From an uncultured beta proteobacterium (GTDB lineage: Bacteria; Pseudomonadota; Gammaproteobacteria; Burkholderiales; SG8-39): a DNA stretch of 13,178 bases. Both the position numbers and the translations under genes were made by a program. Numbering within the stretch: position 1 is the first letter of the stretch; each line of letters starts with the position of its first letter. The notes under the pieces were generated by a model. That model saw nothing but the letters and a program-made list of their open reading frames with translations, was not told the origin of the DNA and did no database searches. The stretch spans positions 1 through 13,178 of the forward strand of contig CADEDU010000134.1 in the NCBI GenBank assembly GCA_902826155.1, written 5' to 3'. Of this stretch, positions 5,371 through 13,170 are shown piece by piece.

Positions 5371-5442
5371 CTTCGACTCACTCAGGGCAGGCTCCTTCGA
5401 CTCACTCAGGGCAGGCTCCTTCGACTCACTCAGGGCAGGCTC
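5371..5442. repeat. Three perfect tandem copies of a 24-bp unit
   Basis: The unit CTTCGACTCACTCAGGGCAGGCTC repeats exactly three times (5371-5394, 5395-5418, 5419-5442) with no spacers. It is a variant of the TTCGACAGGCTCAGGGC dispersed-repeat core found immediately to the right, and is most likely a local expansion of it. Because the unit is 24 bp (a multiple of three) it keeps every frame open, giving peptides such as FDSLRAGS repeated three times; these are not genes. The array sits between dctP and dctQ inside the minus-strand operon. Confidence 0.95.
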
Positions 5443-5545
5443 CCTTCGACAAGCTCCCTTCGACAGGCTCAGGGCGAACGGCCTTCAAGTCCCGTTTCGT
5501 GGTGAGCGAATCGAGTCCCGTTCGTGGTGAGCCTGTCGAACCACG
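5443..5545. repeat. Dispersed REP-like inverted repeat between dctP and dctQ
   Basis: Arms at 5459-5481 (TTCGACAGGCTCAGGGCGAACGG) and 5518-5540 are inverted copies: 20 of 23 positions pair (CCGTTCG and TGAGCCTGTCGAA match, three middle bases do not). A degenerate copy, CCTTCGACAAGCTC, precedes them (5444-5457). The right arm is itself partly duplicated: AGTCCCG(T)TTCGTGGTGAGC appears near 5488-5507 and 5514-5532. From experience this sequence type is scattered through intergenic regions of many proteobacterial genomes and yields FDRLRANG-like translations. In the transcript it would form a strong hairpin just 3' of dctP, where it could stabilise dctP mRNA and lower expression of the permease genes, by analogy with REP elements in other transport operons. 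Confidence 0.85.
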
Positions 5546-6766: not shown

Positions 6767-8854
6767 ATGAGCACCACGCCAGGCGTCAACCACCCATTGC
6801 GCATCGCCGCAGACGTCGGCGGCACCTTCACCGACATCGCGGTGTTCGACGAAGCCACTCGCACGCTGCGTCTGGGCAAAACGCTGACCACCACCGATCA
6901 CATCGTGCGTGGCATCGACAACGGCGTGCACAAAGCCGGCAGCCGCTTCGAGCAGGCCAATCTGTTCCTGCACGGCGCCACGATCGCGATCAACACGCTG
7001 CTCGAACGCAACGGTGCGCGCACCGCGCTGGTGATCACCCGCGGCTTTCGCGACATCTACGAGATCGGACGCGTCAACCGCCCCGAGGCGTACAACCTGT
7101 TCTTTCGTAAGCACGTGCCGCTGGTGGAGCGGGCACTGCGCTTCGAGGTGAACGAACGCGTCGCCGCCTCGGGCGATGTCATGACACCGCTCGCCGAAGA
7201 CGAACTGGAGCGCGTGGCCAAAGCGCTGGCGGCCGAGAAGGTCGAGGCCGTGGCCATCCTGTTCCTGCACAGCTACCGCAATCCGGCGCACGAGATCAAG
7301 GCCAAGGCCTATCTGCAACAGCGCCTGCCGCACACGTTCATCACCGCTTCGCACGAGCTCTCGCAGGAATATCGAGAATTCGAACGCAGCTCGACGGTAG
7401 CGGCGAATGCCTACATCGGCCCGCGCGTGCAGAGCTATCTGGCCGAGATCGAGCAGCATCTGCAGCAGCACGCGTTCGCCGGCACCTTTCTGGTGGTGCA
7501 GTCGAGCGGCGGCCTGTACGACGCCAAGGCGGCGCAGCGCGAGTGCATCCGCATGCTGGAGTCGGGGCCGGCAGCCGGCGTCATCGGCACCCGTGCGCTA
7601 TGCCACGCGCTGAAGCTCGATCGCGCGATCGCCTTCGACATGGGCGGCACCACCGCGAAGTCGGGTGTGATCCTGAACGGCGACGTGCTGATGACTTCCA
7701 GCTCGATGATCGGCGGCTACAACGAAGGCCTGCCGGTGCAGATCCCGATGATCGACATCCAGGAGGTCGGCACCGGCGGAGGCAGCATCGCGCGCATCGG
7801 TCCGGCACGATCGCTGCGCGTGGGCCCGCAAAGCGCCGGCTCGCAGCCGGGCCCGGTGTGCTACGGGTTAGGCGGCGCCGAGCCGACGGTCACCGATGCG
7901 AACCTCCTGCTCGGCCGGCTCTCGGCGGCGCGCTTCCTCGGCGGCGACATGCAGCTCGACACCGAATCGGCGCGGCGCGTGATGGCGCGCTCGATCGCCG
8001 ATCCACTCGGCCTCACGCTCGAGCGCGCGGCCGATGGCATCGTGCGCATTGCGGCGGCGACCATGTCCAACGTGGTCAAGCGCGTGACCACCGAGCGCGG
8101 CCTCGATGCGCGCGACTTTCCGATGGTGGCTTTCGGCGGGGCGGGGCCGCTGCACGCGACTCTGGTGGCGCGCGAGCTGCAGATCAGGCAGGTCATCATC
8201 CCGAGCGCACCGGGACATTTCTCGGCGTTCGGCATGCTGGTGGCTGACCTGCGCCGCGACTTCGTCAAGACGCTGTTCACGCCGCTTGCGTCGATCGACT
8301 TCGATGCGTTCGAGCAGCAGTTCGGTCCGCTCGAGCGCGAAGGCGAACGCGACGTGCGCGCGGCCTCGCATGGCATCGCGCAGATCGTGGTCAACCGCAG
8401 CCTCGACATGCGCTACGTCGGCCAGGAGCACGCGGTGACCGTCGACATTCCGGTGGCCGCGTTCCACGCGCGCGACACCGCGCAGATCAAGCGCCTGTTC
8501 GACGCCGTGCACACCCAGCGTTATGGCTATGCGTCGGCGACCGAGCAGGCCGAGATCGTGAGCATCCGCACCTCGGTCTCGGGCACGATGTTCAAACCCA
8601 CACTGGCGCACGCGGCCACGGGGGGCATCGATCCGCCCAACGACGCGCTCACCGGCAAGCGGCCGGTCTATTTCTCGCAGGCGGGCGGCTGGGTCGACAC
8701 GCCGGTGTACTGGCGCGAGCGGCTGCTGGCCGGAAATCGCATCACCGGCCCGGCGCTGATCGAGGAGTACGCCTCCACCACGGTCGCGTTGCCGGGCGAC
8801 CGCATCGAAGTGGATGCATTGGGCAATCTGGTCATCGAGGTGGCACATGAGTAA
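6767..8854 (+). CDS. hyuA: Hydantoinase/oxoprolinase family protein, HyuA-like ATP-binding subunit
   Basis: Protein of 695 aa, the usual length for HyuA / N-methylhydantoinase A / acetone-carboxylase-beta relatives. The actin-like ATPase fold is marked by RIAADVGGTFTDIAVFD (12-28, phosphate loop 1), FDMGGTTAK (290-298, phosphate loop 2) and GGAGPLHA (457-464, nucleotide site). Other family blocks are ATIAINTLLERNGARTALVITRGFRDIYEIGR, SQEYREFERSSTVAANAYIGP and LESGPAAGVIG. The subunit hydrolyses or uses ATP to activate the substrate of its partner, encoded immediately downstream with an 8-bp overlap. The start ATG (6767) gives the standard N-terminus; an in-frame GTG at 6731 would add 12 residues. 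Its ribosome-binding site is poor. It is divergent from dctP, so import and catabolism may be co-regulated. Whether the reaction is hydantoin/oxoproline ring opening or carboxylation cannot be decided. Confidence 0.94.
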   Translation: MSTTPGVNHPLRIAADVGGTFTDIAVFDEATRTLRLGKTLTTTDHIVRGIDNGVHKAGSRFEQANLFLHGATIAINTLLERNGARTALVITRGFRDIYEIGRVNRPEAYNLFFRKHVPLVERALRFEVNERVAASGDVMTPLAEDELERVAKALAAEKVEAVAILFLHSYRNPAHEIKAKAYLQQRLPHTFITASHELSQEYREFERSSTVAANAYIGPRVQSYLAEIEQHLQQHAFAGTFLVVQSSGGLYDAKAAQRECIRMLESGPAAGVIGTRALCHALKLDRAIAFDMGGTTAKSGVILNGDVLMTSSSMIGGYNEGLPVQIPMIDIQEVGTGGGSIARIGPARSLRVGPQSAGSQPGPVCYGLGGAEPTVTDANLLLGRLSAARFLGGDMQLDTESARRVMARSIADPLGLTLERAADGIVRIAAATMSNVVKRVTTERGLDARDFPMVAFGGAGPLHATLVARELQIRQVIIPSAPGHFSAFGMLVADLRRDFVKTLFTPLASIDFDAFEQQFGPLEREGERDVRAASHGIAQIVVNRSLDMRYVGQEHAVTVDIPVAAFHARDTAQIKRLFDAVHTQRYGYASATEQAEIVSIRTSVSGTMFKPTLAHAATGGIDPPNDALTGKRPVYFSQAGGWVDTPVYWRERLLAGNRITGPALIEEYASTTVALPGDRIEVDALGNLVIEVAHE

Positions 8855-10796
8855 TACGACAAACACGGACAACCTCGGCGGCGGCGCGGGCGCTCGCGCG
8901 GCCTTCAGCGCCGATCCCGTCATCACCGAAATCCTGCGCAACGCCTTCGTCGCCACCACCGAGGAGATGAAGGCCAATCTGATGCGCACCGCCTACAACA
9001 TGATCATCTACGAGGCGCTCGATTTCACCGTCGGCCTGTTCGACCGCGCCGGCAACACGATCTCGGTGGGCATCGGGCTGCCGACGTTCATTCGCGGCAT
9101 GAGTAACACCGTGAAGAAGATGATCGAGCACTTCGGGCTGGCCGCGATGGAGGAGGGCGACGTGCTCCTCACCAACGACGCCTACACCACCGGCAGCCAT
9201 CTGAATCACATGACGTTCGTGGTGCCGGTGTTCTGGAAAGGGGAGATCGTTGCGTTCTCCGCGTGCATGGCGCACTGGATCGACATCGGCGGGACGCTGG
9301 ATGGCATGACGCTCGACATCTACTCCGAAGGCTTGCAGATGCCGATCGTGAAGGCATGGCGCAAGGGCGAGCCCAACGACGACGTGTTCCGCATCATCGC
9401 GCTCAACGTGCGCGTGCCCGAACGCGCCATGGGCGACCTGCGTGCGCAGATCGCGGCGGTGAAATCGGGCGAGAAGCGGGTGCTGGAGATGCTGGCCAAA
9501 TACGGGCGCGACGAGTTTCTCGGCGGCATCGAAGCGATCTTCGATCAGAGCGAAGCCACCACGCGCGAGCAGATCCGCGCCATTCCCGATGGCGTGTACG
9601 AAGCCGAGTCGTTCATGGACGACGACGGCGTCGACATGGGCAAGCCGATCCCGATCCGCGTGAAGGTGACGGTGGCAGGTGATGCGATGACCGTCGACCT
9701 CACCGGCGTGGGCGAGCAGGTGCGCGGCTTCTTCAACTCCGGCATGCCGGCCGGGCTGTCGGCCGCGCAGGTGGCGCTCAAATGCATCGCGGCGCCGCTG
9801 GAGATGCCGATCAACGACGGGTGCTTTCGGCCGCTCGAGATCATCGTGCCCGAGGGCAGGGTCGTGAACGCCACGCGCCCCGCGCCGATGCGCATGTGGA
9901 TGACCTTCCCGATGACGGTGATCGACACCGTATTCAAGGCACTGGCCCCGGCGATTCCCACCAAGGTGGCCGCCGCGCATCACGCCGACCTGGTCGTGGC
10001 GAACATCAACGGCCGCCGCCCCGACACCAAGAAACTCTTCCTCTACCTGGGTGGCCTCATTGGCGGCGGCTGGGGCGCCAAGCACGACAGCGATGGCATG
10101 TGCGCCACCATCGCCATCAACGACGGCGACACCCACAACGGCCCCTCGGAACAGGTCGAAGCCAAGTACCCGTTCATCATCGAGCGCTACGCGCTGCGGC
10201 AGGATTCCGGCGGCGCGGGCAAGCATCGCGGCGGCCTGGGCACCGAGCAGGTCGTGCGCTGCCTCACCGACACCATGTTCAACACGCAGATCGAGCGCGT
10301 GGAGCATCGTCCGTGGGGACTCTTCGGCGGACTCTCGGCGCTGGGTAACCAGGTGGCCATCGAACGCCATGGCCAACCGGAGACGGTGTACGCCACCGGC
10401 AAGATCTTCTCCCAACTCCTCAAACCGGGAGATCGCTACACCCTGCGATCAGGAGGCGGCGGTGGCTTCGGCAAACCGATCGACCGCAAACGGGAGGACG
10501 TGGAGAACGACGTGCGCCAGGGCTACGTCTCGATCGAATCCGCACGCGAGCACTACGGCGTGGTCATCGACCGCGTCACGATGAAAGCCGACGTAGCGGC
10601 GACCGAGGCGCTGCGCGCCCACATGCACGAACACGGTCTGCCCAAAGACGTGCCGCTCACCAGCATGGCAAACCCACCCGAGGGCGCGAAGGTCGTGCCG
10701 ATCACTCAGCGCGCGCGCCTGCTCGGCGCGAAAGCGCGTGCTTGGCACGCGGAGGCGCAGGCAGAGGGGTTGCTGGCGGATCGGTGTTGTAGCTAA
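8847..10796 (+). CDS. hyuB: Hydantoinase/oxoprolinase family protein, HyuB-like subunit
   Basis: Protein of 649 aa, partner of HyuA. Hydantoinase B landmarks are RNAFVATTEEMKANLMRTAYN (31-51), GDVLLTNDAYTTGSHLNHMTFVVPVF (104-129), AHWIDIGG (142-149), GVYEAESFMDDDG, a Gly-rich GGLIGGGWGAKHDSDG, PFIIERYALRQDSGGAGKHRGGLG, and the terminal LRSGGGGGFGKPIDR...VRQGYVSIESAREHYGVVID. In relatives the first metal motif is HLPD; here it is HLNH (118-121), replacing Asp by His121, while His143 and Asp146 remain. About 75 residues follow the usual C-terminal block, with no recognised domain. The ATG at 8847 has GAGG about 7 nt upstream and overlaps the hyuA stop, indicating translational coupling. Confidence 0.94.
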   Translation: MSNTTNTDNLGGGAGARAAFSADPVITEILRNAFVATTEEMKANLMRTAYNMIIYEALDFTVGLFDRAGNTISVGIGLPTFIRGMSNTVKKMIEHFGLAAMEEGDVLLTNDAYTTGSHLNHMTFVVPVFWKGEIVAFSACMAHWIDIGGTLDGMTLDIYSEGLQMPIVKAWRKGEPNDDVFRIIALNVRVPERAMGDLRAQIAAVKSGEKRVLEMLAKYGRDEFLGGIEAIFDQSEATTREQIRAIPDGVYEAESFMDDDGVDMGKPIPIRVKVTVAGDAMTVDLTGVGEQVRGFFNSGMPAGLSAAQVALKCIAAPLEMPINDGCFRPLEIIVPEGRVVNATRPAPMRMWMTFPMTVIDTVFKALAPAIPTKVAAAHHADLVVANINGRRPDTKKLFLYLGGLIGGGWGAKHDSDGMCATIAINDGDTHNGPSEQVEAKYPFIIERYALRQDSGGAGKHRGGLGTEQVVRCLTDTMFNTQIERVEHRPWGLFGGLSALGNQVAIERHGQPETVYATGKIFSQLLKPGDRYTLRSGGGGGFGKPIDRKREDVENDVRQGYVSIESAREHYGVVIDRVTMKADVAATEALRAHMHEHGLPKDVPLTSMANPPEGAKVVPITQRARLLGAKARAWHAEAQAEGLLADRCCS

Positions 10797-10849
10797 CTCA
10801 GGCTGCAGCCGGCTCGGCTTGCACGCCACGAAGCGCCTGAGTCGATAGC
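10792..10849. terminator. Imperfect stem-loop overlapping the hyuB stop, possible terminator
   Basis: GCTA-ACTCAGGC (10792-10803) pairs with GCCTGAGT-CGA-TAGC (10835-10849), with a 3-nt bulge and a 31-nt loop. The left part of the loop continues a separate 10-bp palindrome, GGCTGCAGCC (10801-10810). A pyrimidine-rich CCCGCCCTTCTT follows on the plus strand. Its position at the end of hyuAB fits termination, but the long loop and lack of a true T-run make the call weak. Confidence 0.35.
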
Positions 10850-10939
10850 CCGCCCTTCTTGCCGGTGCGGCGCCGGACGCGCACTTCCTTCGTCGGCTAT
10901 ATTTGCATACAGCCAACGACAACGAATGCGGAGGAAGGC

Positions 10940-11380
10940 ATGGAGGCGCGCGTCACCCTGCGACCCGGGGCAAAGGGCGCCAAGAAGCTAACCGCCGAAT
11001 TCGGCGACCGACTGATCTGCGTGCGCTATCGCTACGACCAGGAGCGCAGGCGCCGCATCAAGACCGTCGAGATCATCGTCGACGAAGCCGACTGGACGCC
11101 TGTTGCAGCGCGGAATGCAGCCGCGCCGGAGCCGGACCGCGAACACCTACGGCAGATCGTCGGCGTGCGCGTGGCCTACGCGGAGGTCGCGCTACGACGG
11201 GCCGTGGGCGAGGCGGGCGGACGCTGGGACCCGTCGGCGCGGCTGTGGCTGCTGCCGCTCGCGGCCGCGCGGGCTCTGGGGCTGCAGGAGCGCATCATCC
11301 AGTTGCTGCCCGATAACAGACGGAAGCAAAGTGAGGCGGCAGGGGGCGGTAACAGGGCAGAGAAGGGGGCGGTTCAGTGA
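10940..11380 (+). CDS. Hypothetical protein of 146 aa, basic N-terminal half, GxRWDP-type motif
   Basis: No function assigned. The start ATG at 10940 has GAGGAA (10931-10936) 3-4 nt upstream; a longer frame from 10859 adds 27 residues of intergenic character. The protein begins MEARVTLRPGAKGAKKLTAE, continues with a charged DRLICVRYRYDQERRRRIKTVEIIVDEADW stretch (23-52), and after a Pro/Ala linker has VRVAYAEVALRRAVGEAGGRWDPSARLWLLP (76-106). The GGRWDPxxRLWLLP pattern recalls short modules (DUF5710/HARP-like) found in mobile-element proteins, but this is resemblance only. I believe similar orphan proteins occur near transposases in betaproteobacteria; here it sits between the catabolic genes and the integron/IS segment. 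The Arg/Lys-rich core suggests nucleic-acid binding, as inference. Confidence 0.75.
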   Translation: MEARVTLRPGAKGAKKLTAEFGDRLICVRYRYDQERRRRIKTVEIIVDEADWTPVAARNAAAPEPDREHLRQIVGVRVAYAEVALRRAVGEAGGRWDPSARLWLLPLAAARALGLQERIIQLLPDNRRKQSEAAGGGNRAEKGAVQ

Positions 11381-11469
11381 TAAACCTGCCTATACCTACG
11401 ATAACCGGCTAATAGATCTGGAAACCGGTTTCTGGTATTGGAAACCCTTATCATGAAAGTTACTTCTAG
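11381..11469. other. AT-richer spacer upstream of the cassette: possible attI or decayed attC
   Basis: This stretch is markedly AT-richer than its surroundings. It contains a perfect 12-bp palindrome GAAACCGGTTTC (11421-11432). GGAAACC occurs twice, 20 bp apart (11420-11426 and 11440-11446). GGCTAATAG (11407-11415) is almost the reverse complement of CTAGTTAGCC (11466-11475), lacking one base. The stretch runs into the GTTAGCC core (11469-11475) where the exporter cassette starts. It could be an integron attI site, where a core follows integrase-binding direct repeats, or the residue of an attC. The interior arms do not pair as in a good attC. No convincing promoter was found. Confidence 0.4.
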
Positions 11470-12190
11470 TTAGCCGTCACCCAACTCCACCACAATCTCG
11501 TCATGATCACGCTCGAATTTCTCATCACCTCACTCGTCGTCGTTCTGGTCCCCGGCACCGGGGTCGTGTACACCGTTTCCACCGGCCTTACCCGTGGTCG
11601 CCGGGCAAGCATCTACGCTGCGGTCGGCTGTACGGCGGGAATCCTGCCGCACCTGCTGGCTACCGTCCTGGGCCTGGCGGCCGTCATGCACACCAGTGCC
11701 TTGGCGTTTCAGGTGCTCAAGTTCGCGGGTGTGGCCTACCTCTTCTACCTGGCTGTCGCCACTTGGCGCGACCGCTCCGCGTTCTCGGTCGATGGCAGCA
11801 TGTCCAAGGTCTCTGCTACAGGGCTTGTGGTCAAGGCCTTCCTGCTCAACATCCTCAACCCCAAACTCACCATCTTCTTCCTAGCCTTCCTGCCTCAGTT
11901 TGTCGACCCCACCTCTACGCAGCCACTCGCTCATCTGTTGGTGCTGAGTGCGGTCTTCATGGCAATGACCTTTGTGGTGTTTGTCATCTATGGCTTCTTG
12001 GCTCACGCCTTTCGTCGGTTCGTCATCGAGTCCGCTCGCGTACAGAGCGCTCTGCGCTATGGCTTCGCGGCGGCGTTTGCGGCGCTTGGTGCCCGGCTGG
12101 CCGCGAGTGAGCGGTGACGGCTAACCCTTCGCTGCACCTGACTGGCTCCAGCGGGCTTCGCCCGCCTCCGCCAGCAGGTGAGCTCAAACG
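11470..12190 (+). mobile_element. Integron gene cassette carrying a LysE-family exporter
   Basis: A 721-bp unit with the standard cassette anatomy: a GTTAGCC core at the left (11469-11475, crossover after G), 27 bp from that core to the ATG, one gene with no evident ribosome-binding site filling almost the whole unit, then an attC beginning two bases after the stop codon and ending in a second GTTRRRY core (GTTGAGC, 12190-12196). The left core TTAGCC joined to the terminal G restores GTTAGCC, exactly complementary to the R'' box GGCTAAC, as expected for a cassette that circularises. Base composition is lower in GC than the flanks. No intI gene is in the window. The left neighbour site is unclear, and the right side runs into IS remnants. 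Confidence 0.8.
11503..12117 (+). CDS. LysE/RhtB-family amino-acid or metabolite exporter (cassette-borne)
   Basis: Inner-membrane protein of 204 aa, typical length for LysE/RhtB, with six predicted hydrophobic helices. Family marks are the N-terminal ITSLVVVLVPGTGVVYTVSTGLTRGRRASIYAAVG (the usual PGP reads PGTG, 17-20), GILPHLLATVLGLAAVM, LKFAGVAYLFYLAVATWRDR, and the signature NILNPK (116-121) leading into the helix of LTIFFLAFLPQFV. Members export amino acids, homoserine lactone or related compounds by proton-linked transport. The ATG at 11503 fits the family N-terminus; no ribosome-binding site precedes it. Codon use has visibly more A/T in third positions than hyuAB, consistent with foreign origin. 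The stop codon lies inside the 13-bp inverted repeat that includes the attC R'' box. Confidence 0.92.
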   Translation: MITLEFLITSLVVVLVPGTGVVYTVSTGLTRGRRASIYAAVGCTAGILPHLLATVLGLAAVMHTSALAFQVLKFAGVAYLFYLAVATWRDRSAFSVDGSMSKVSATGLVVKAFLLNILNPKLTIFFLAFLPQFVDPTSTQPLAHLLVLSAVFMAMTFVVFVIYGFLAHAFRRFVIESARVQSALRYGFAAAFAALGARLAASER

Positions 12191-12196
12191 TTGAGC
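12119..12196 (+). other. attC recombination site (78 bp) of the exporter cassette
   Basis: The site begins with R'' GGCTAAC (12119-12125) and ends with R' GTTGAGC (12190-12196, fits GTTRRRY). Between them the sequence is an imperfect palindrome: CACCTG (12135-12140) pairs with CAGGTG (12175-12180), CTGG (12142-12145) with CCAG (12171-12174), and GCGGGC (12151-12156) with GCCCGC (12160-12165) around a TTC loop. The outer arms (CTTCGCTG against AGCTCAAAC) pair imperfectly with unpaired bases, as in the extrahelical-base region of attC. The start R''-CCTTCGCT resembles many environmental attC sites. Length is within the normal 55-140 bp range. Confidence 0.82.
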
Positions 12197-12330
12197 TTGT
12201 CGAAAAAGGTAGTTTTGCGGGGAGAACTTTCCCCTCCGACCTTCTTGATCGGAGTTTCTGAACACCTTTTCTGATTTGTCGCCGTTGTGGCGATTGAATT
12301 CGCCGACGCAAATCCCTCTCCGGTGCTTTC
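12197..12330. other. Non-coding stretch between attC and the IS1182-like remnant
   Basis: No gene is apparent. It begins with CTTGTCGAA, which with the end of attC gives TTGAGCTTGTCGAA, matching an arm of the dispersed TTCGACAAGCTC repeat. Two small hairpins follow: GGGGA (12219-12223) with TCCCC (12230-12234), and TCCGA (12235-12239) with TCGGA (12249-12253). This is probably the 3' untranslated end of the IS1182-like element, whose right terminus I cannot place exactly. Confidence 0.5.
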
Positions 12331-12576
12331 TTAGTGCACCTTGCCTGGCAGCTTTCCGTACCTGGCGATCTTCTCGATGTTGTGCACCAGGCAGAACAGG
12401 TGCCACTGCCCATCGACCTTGTCCTGCCCGCGCAGCGTGAACCGTCGTAGCCCCTTGTTCTTCAGGTTGCCGAACACCGGCTCGACGATGCCCAGGCGCC
12501 GGCTGTACAGGAACCGTCCCTGGTCGGATTTGATCCTGGCGCCCATCTTTGCGCTGTGGAAAGACGCGACCGCCAT
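12331..12576 (-). pseudogene. IS1182-family transposase, C-terminal remnant
   Basis: Only about 75 codons of the transposase C-terminus remain. The readable part is MGARIKSDQGRFLYSRRLGIVEPVFGNLKNKGLRRF, then LRGQDKVDGQWHLFCLVHNIEKIARYGK, the standard IS1182-type end of the DDE domain: GxxxYSRRxGxVEPVF, with the terminal catalytic Glu in VEPVF, and the QWxLFCLVHNIEKIA tail. The stop is TAA at 12331-12333. Similarity ends near 12547-12556, where the frame passes into the IS3-like relic on the opposite strand, so at least 80% of the transposase is missing and the element is dead. The remnant probably marks an IS that inserted next to the cassette and was later truncated. Confidence 0.85.
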
Positions 12577-13170
12577 ACGCGGCGGAGTTTCGCCAGCAAA
12601 TCGTAGAGCTGTACGCTGCGGGGCGAACGCGGCGCGAGCTGTCCAAGGAGTTCGGTTATTCGGAGCGGTCGGTACTGAATTGGGCCAAGCAGGCCGGTAC
12701 CGTGGTGGCCTTGCCCGATAAGGGTGCTGCGGTGCTACGCACGCACCCGGCCGAGTGTCGCAAGGTGGTGGGCTGGTCGATCGGGGAAGACCTGCGTCCC
12801 GAGTTGGTGCTGGCGGCGTTGGACATGGCCGTGGTGCAGCGCGCCGCTGAAGCGGTGGTGATTCACAGCGACAAGGGCTGCCTGTACACCAGCGTGAAGT
12901 TTGGGCAGCGCTGCCATGAAATGGGTGTGCAGCCCTCGACCTGGAGCGGCAGGGGACGCCTACGACAACGCCATGGCTGAGAGCTTCTTTGCCACGCTGG
13001 AATGCGAGCTGTTGGATCGGCGGGTGTTCAAAAGCAAGGCTGAAGCGCGCAGCGCGCTATTCACCTACGAACTCGGCAACACCGGGTACGCGTTAAGAAG
13101 CCTTCGCTTGGTGATGCGGGGCAGGGCGCGCGCAGGCTTGTGCGTTGATCAGCCGCGCTTTCCCAAGTAG
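12549..13170 (+). pseudogene. IS3-family transposase relic: orfA fused to orfB by deletion, then frameshifted
   Basis: The OrfA start is recognisable as PPYAAEFRQQIVELYAAGRT, then SKEFGYSERSVLNWAKQAG (helix-turn-helix, about codons 8-50 counted from the TTG at 12549). About 20 codons later the frame jumps into the OrfB integrase core: RKVVGWSIGEDLRPELVLAALDMA, then VIHSDKGCLYTS, with the second catalytic Asp codon at 12870-12872. The OrfB N-terminus and the first catalytic Asp are gone. A +1 shift, most simply an extra G in GGGG at 12952-12955, moves DAYDNAMAESFFATLECELLDR, with the catalytic Glu at 12979-12981, to another frame. Recognisable similarity stops near 13075; the last 30 codons to TAG (13168-13170) are not IS3-like. 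No terminal inverted repeats were found. Confidence 0.82.

Follow-up and report, generated by a model that had tools for sequence, protein, structure and literature searches.

Integron gene cassettes, of class 1 and of chromosomal integrons alike, and the insertion sequences that enter their attC sites are the described systems closest to the locus reported here. The usual core-site consensus of integrons is GTTRRRY. The self-pairing of cassette ends commonly reaches 9-11 nt, as given in a passage of PMC2727003. Members of the IS1111-attC group insert at one end of an attC site (Tetu and Holmes 2008; Post and Hall 2009; both as cited in part of PMC11187229), and attC-seeking IS1111 elements are also mentioned in passages of PMC12444791 and PMC11089894. 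In the window, by which we mean the whole 13,178-nt stretch of DNA analysed, we are highly confident that a genuine LysE/RhtB integron cassette was later followed by the insertion of an attC-preferring IS1182-family element after the GTT of the R' box, and that this element is now a remnant.

The gene of the cassette (11503..12117, plus strand) encodes a LysE/RhtB-type protein of 204 aa (PF01810, 117.4 bits) with a predicted exporter function; its best NCBIfam model, homoserine/homoserine lactone efflux, gives 129.1 bits, below the cut-off of 209. The cassette itself (11470..12190, plus strand) measures 721 bp from the TT of its 5' core to the G of R', and is delimited by matching ends and an attC. 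The 5' core GTTAGCC (11469..11475, plus strand) lies 27 nt 5' of the ATG at 11503, in agreement with the sequence-only reading, and is the exact reverse complement of the R'' box GGCTAAC (12119-12125), which is separated by 1 nt from the lysE stop codon (12115-12117). GTTAGCC deviates from the core consensus at base 6, and R'' has the matching change. The inverted repeat formed by the two ends (11469-11480 with 12114-12125) is 12 bp long and exceeds the 7-bp box. In a comparison of six lysE cassettes, the two ends of one cassette fit each other better than ends swapped between cassettes (67 of 72 letters match, and 12 of 720 permutations do as well), as is expected if cassette ends pair. The attC has the orientation of lysE (+), and the gene fills the cassette behind a 27-nt leader, in which no Shine-Dalgarno-like run was seen by eye (unscored), consistent with the earlier remark that a ribosome-binding site is missing. 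The differing base composition claimed for the gene was likewise observed, with a G+C content of about 0.60 over 11251-12250 versus 0.65-0.68 over 9251-11250. Expression of lysE probably relies on an outside promoter.

Every attC motif that the sequence-only reading had named was found in its place: besides R'', these are the inner helix CACCTG/CAGGTG (12135-12140/12175-12180), the CTGG/CCAG arms (12142-12145/12171-12174), the GCGGGC/GCCCGC terminal hairpin (12151-12156/12160-12165) and R' GTTGAGC (12190-12196). An outer helix is formed by 12131-12133/12181-12183. Because Rfam at its gathering scores yielded no match in the window, an attC covariance model, R1, was built from 18 attC sites, none of them from the window: 8 from plasmid class 1 integrons and 10 from genome loci, all found by a rough motif search. 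A first alignment, A1, had 22 rows and 9 consensus pairs; for A2 (18 rows), five rows from L116 with an L' spacing one base off were removed, one row from L103 was added, and the structure was set by hand. Pairing cells amount to 86.1% in the training set, compared with 71.2% in shuffles. The genomes of L089, L103, L106 and L116 were chosen for their cassette-like lysE flanks, and R1 is biased towards hosts of that kind; for the intI search, 18 genomes were chosen by eye, 12 of which scored above the cut-off. R1 assigns 43.6 bits to 12119..12196 on the plus strand, with an E-value of 9.6e-10 that is rough owing to a short calibration, and the runner-up among the 18 R1 matches listed for the window (filters off) reaches 9.7 bits. 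Folding of the site's bottom strand gives -23.8 kcal/mol (z -3.68), a stability matched by none of 200 shuffles. A12141 and G12134 are unpaired on the L'' side, as expected of an attC. A12141 corresponds to T on the bottom strand, the usual base; G12134 corresponds to C where G is usual, and the same G occurs in 3 of the 18 training sites. For the site studied in PMC2727003, a section heading says that which base occupies the first extrahelical position is not essential.

That the exporter gene is packaged as an integron cassette is borne out both by the covariance search and by independent homologous cassettes, two of which stand behind intI1. Of 7999 scored homologues the best 120 were considered; within these, P0002-P0025 share 88-95% identity with the exporter and lie mostly on short metagenome contigs. 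Two Aeromonas plasmids encode LysE proteins 77.5% and 78.5% identical to it over an aligned 89% and 73% of the query, and in both the gene is located after intI1 and aac(6')-Ib4, in class 1 integrons; it is annotated in one plasmid record and reaches the record end in the other. A lysE relative is present in each of 80 listed genome loci; attC matches at E<0.01 occur in 9 of these loci and are absent from 71, and an attC directly adjoins lysE in 4 (L001, L010, L028 and L060). Related lysE cassettes lie within arrays in L001, L020 and L028. Members of the lineage are found both in arrays of environmental origin and in the class 1 integrons of carbapenemase plasmids, and its cassette adds another transporter to the pool of non-resistance cassettes. 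In the betaproteobacterial soil genome that also holds L020, the stretch L116 1-8833 is largely a cassette array, with 13 attC matches on the plus strand at E<0.1 in 8.8 kb, one of which was used in training. The attC sites at L148 1470-1547 and L154 1470-1547, from two other genomes, share the terminal hairpin of the window's site (91% identity over 43 bases and 94% over 32), possibly a hint at a common cassette pool.

The sequence-only reading went further and held that the right part of the window is or was an integron array. The cassette stands, but an array is not shown: R1 detects one attC only in the window (all other matches score at most 9.7 bits), tblastn at E<=1e-5 finds no IntI1 relative in it, and the contig stops at 13178, 982 bp past the attC. 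For the same reasons, what is left of an array would look no different here from a single cassette inserted at a secondary site. We give a little less than an even chance to the account of a decayed integron that, through the activity of insertion sequences, lost its integrase and every cassette but this one. The several related lysE cassettes found in arrays fit this account, as do the degraded insertion sequences to the right of the cassette, of the IS1182 and IS3 families, the IS3-family pieces lying at 12549..13170 on the plus strand (NF033516, 70 and 34 bits, cut-off 160). The single attC and the ordinary genes on the left speak against it, and the right side ends with the record. The left neighbour, outside the cassette, encodes a 146-aa protein (10940..11380, plus strand) with 106 homologues and no Pfam or NCBIfam match; its distant relatives occur in varied contexts, once next to a transposase-like gene (L125, by eye). 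Considered as a partner or as an empty-site marker, this gene gained no support. Further left, at 6767-10796, two adjoining genes are relatives of those for the alpha and beta subunits of caprolactamase (524.7 and 329.2 bits, each below the cut-off of 1000) and lie near TRAP transporter genes.

At the right edge of the cassette stands a probable IS1182-family IS remnant on the minus strand (12193..12576), which consists of a terminus and the end of a transposase gene. The terminus GAGCTTGTCGAAAAA (12193-12207) begins directly after the GTT (12190-12192) of R' and matches at 13 of 15 letters. The transposase gene end (12331-12576, minus strand) encodes an 81-aa fragment that scores 65.1 bits with NF033551 at model positions 421-487 of 488, the family cut-off being 270. 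GTTGAGC had been read as the R' box of the attC; its sequence and place hold, while its last four letters (12193-12196) are most likely the IS end and not attC. R' is probably a hybrid of GTT from the attC and GAGC from an IS1182-type terminus, which conforms to the core consensus; with such a hybrid, the original right junction of the cassette would be lost.

The DNA of this element matches 42 of 369 genomes of one class, and the transposase of a relative matches 34 of the same 369 genomes at 1e-20. In a second class, the transposase is present in 24 of 242 genomes at 1e-40 and the examined copies have the same junctions; in a third class, it is present in 3 of 42 genomes. Many fetched copies bear two termini of the approximate form GAG(G/C)CTGTAGAAAA. 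Two full-length transposases of this clade score 301.9 and 289.3 bits, above the IS1182 cut-off of 270, and a third scores 263.4, just below it; IS1182 is the best family, and IS110 is absent from those listed for the transposase at E<=0.001. The window remnant is up to 79% identical to clade copies, which also occur on named replicons of Pseudoalteromonas piscicida and Catenovulum adriaticum. In a tree, 16 clade transposases split from six other IS1182 copies (L222-L227, 23-29% identical to L163) with support 100/100, under a long-branch warning. Near the transposases of these six copies no clade-like terminus was found, and their sole attC-like match has an E-value of 0.52 (L227). The exact IS-end pattern had no match in viral contigs or in 160 loci, and a shortened pattern matched in 13 viral contigs.

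The target habit of the clade was examined at 49 junctions, 21 in a first set and 28 in a second, from stretches taken by the window-IS DNA search (17), the transposase search (20) and the second-class search (16). This sample is part of the listed places, with the short loci L178-L207 outside the terminus scan. Copies with one usable end (L162, L164, L170, L173, L174, L175, L216, L229, L233, L234, L250, L252 and L254) or with a flank below 15 nt (L161, L172 and L240) were excluded, as were the inner copies of tandem chains (L208, L269, L272 and L281), partial copies in L177, L215 and L228 of which one end was seen, duplicates in which the same copy had been fetched twice (L237, L241, L242, L245, L247, L248 and L251), loci in which no terminus close to the transposase was convincing (L166, L168, L171, L222-L227 and L232), and L231. 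L001 and L094/L114 were found separately and are outside the 49.

The IS directly follows GTT in 48 of the 49 junctions and CGTT in 47; over these loci as a whole, C precedes 21% of GTT occurrences. All 46 two-ended copies are flanked by 3-bp direct repeats, GTT in 45 and TTT in one. A or G follows the right-hand GTT in 44 of 46 (background 46%), and GTTRRR follows the IS in only 15 of 46 (background 11%). An R1 attC match at E<0.1 spans the junction in 25 of 49 cases (9 of 21 in the first set, 16 of 28 in the second); 6 further junctions have a weak attC match only (E 0.24-1.9), and the other 18 lack one at the thresholds listed. Scores for attC geometry at IS junctions differ from background at p 5e-6, with 13 of 22 scoring at least 7 compared with 3.7% of 4901 background GTT sites, and a stricter R'' pattern gives weaker attC support (Mann-Whitney p 0.008); the window is part of both counts, and true attC sites are among the background. 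In 48 of 49 junctions the transposase points the same way as the cassette, the count being 48 because L230 was entered by its GTT side, with its transposase running opposite; only L001 and the window share this reversed orientation. Junctions L169, L176, L209 and L210 resemble off-target sites, and L231, whose terminus (one mismatch) is preceded by TGT, is a counter-example. Tandem IS1182-type copies separated by GTT alone were seen at L208 2412-2416, L269 3787-3791 and 5638-5642, L272 3796-3800 and L281 3704-3708, as if a first insertion leaves a target for the next; they show that a further insertion used either such a hybrid box or the GTT at the opposite end of the IS.

These junctions bear on a different explanation of the right edge, in which the cassette is real, GTTGAGC is the native R' joined to the next cassette, and the sequence from 12193 resembles an IS1182 terminus by accident. 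GTTGAGC by itself fits GTTRRRY, the window's IS runs in the rarer direction, and the terminus could be a mere repeat because a GAGCCTGTCGAA-like 15-mer with 3 mismatches is also present at 5529. Against this, the 13 matching letters stand directly after an attC GTT, the place used by 48 of the 49 counted relatives, and the distance from the terminus to the transposase stop is 138 bp, close to the 140 bp of L161. In addition, at the L094/L114 junction, beside an intI gene, an attC-like match (E 0.082) ends at a GTT followed directly by GAGCCTGTCGAAAAA, a terminus one letter from that of the window. We regard an accidental likeness as unlikely. Short repeats (GAGCCTGTCGAA / TTCGACAGGCTC) similar to the IS terminus are present in intergenic DNA at 5380-5540. 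It is still far less credible that an ordinary chromosomal lysE is followed by a terminator-like hairpin resembling attC by chance, an idea suited to the 71 loci lacking an attC match but contradicted by the E-value of the site beside a next match of 9.7 bits, by cassette ends matching over 12 bp and by closest plasmid homologues that sit in class 1 integrons.

For the preferred reading, a cassette followed by an IS1182-family insertion, we infer the order of events and the ability of the cassette to excise. An integron integrase folds the attC bottom strand into a hairpin and recombines between the G and TT of the core, which is the likely arrival route of the lysE cassette, in a window where no integrase was found. 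An IS1182-family element, from a lineage that prefers attC R' boxes and duplicates GTT, probably inserted later, directly after the GTT of R', its terminus GAGC leaving a consensus-like R' GTTGAGC. The IS was then probably truncated where IS3-type DNA now starts. From junction sequences, this lineage looks like one that aims at attC outside the IS1111-attC group. More tentatively, and with the balance somewhat against it in our judgement, the lineage may have evolved to hunt attC sites, inserting after the GTT of R' in a preferred direction and duplicating GTT; it would rebuild a usable R' box because IS termini begin GAG(G/C), so that the upstream cassette would stay mobile and the IS would merge with the downstream cassette into a single larger unit open to movement by integrases, the window being an example. 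Apart from that scenario, a second transposase family appears to have an attC-seeking habit, with the signature CGTT-IS-GTT found in two bacterial classes. This signature could flag attC sites overlooked by attC models, and the clade makes it possible to test how a transposase of ordinary appearance could acquire recognition of a folded-strand site.

Compared with the cassettes of class 1 and chromosomal integrons, the window likewise has R'', L'', L' and R' boxes, a bottom-strand hairpin, a 5' core matching R'' and one gene in the attC direction, and the class 1 order intI1-aac(6')-Ib4-lysE carries a LysE 77.5% identical to its own. It differs from them in having neither an integrase nor a second attC, in the extrahelical C in place of the usual G at bottom-strand L'', and in an R' that is probably in part IS-derived. 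The lysE cassette is a further integron cassette of known type. The clade shares with other IS1182 elements a transposase of that family, two scoring above the cut-off and a third just below it; L222-L227 lack the clade terminus near their transposases. Like the IS1111-attC group, the clade inserts at one end of attC sites; in contrast to that group, its transposase belongs to the IS1182 family and not to IS110/IS1111, and its 3-bp target repeats, found in 46 of 46 two-ended copies, would probably set it apart from IS1111 elements as well. Among the open-access papers listed by literature searches, no title or opening of an abstract described IS1182 elements aimed at attC. Provisionally, attC-targeting in the IS1182 family is new and stands outside the known IS1111-attC group.
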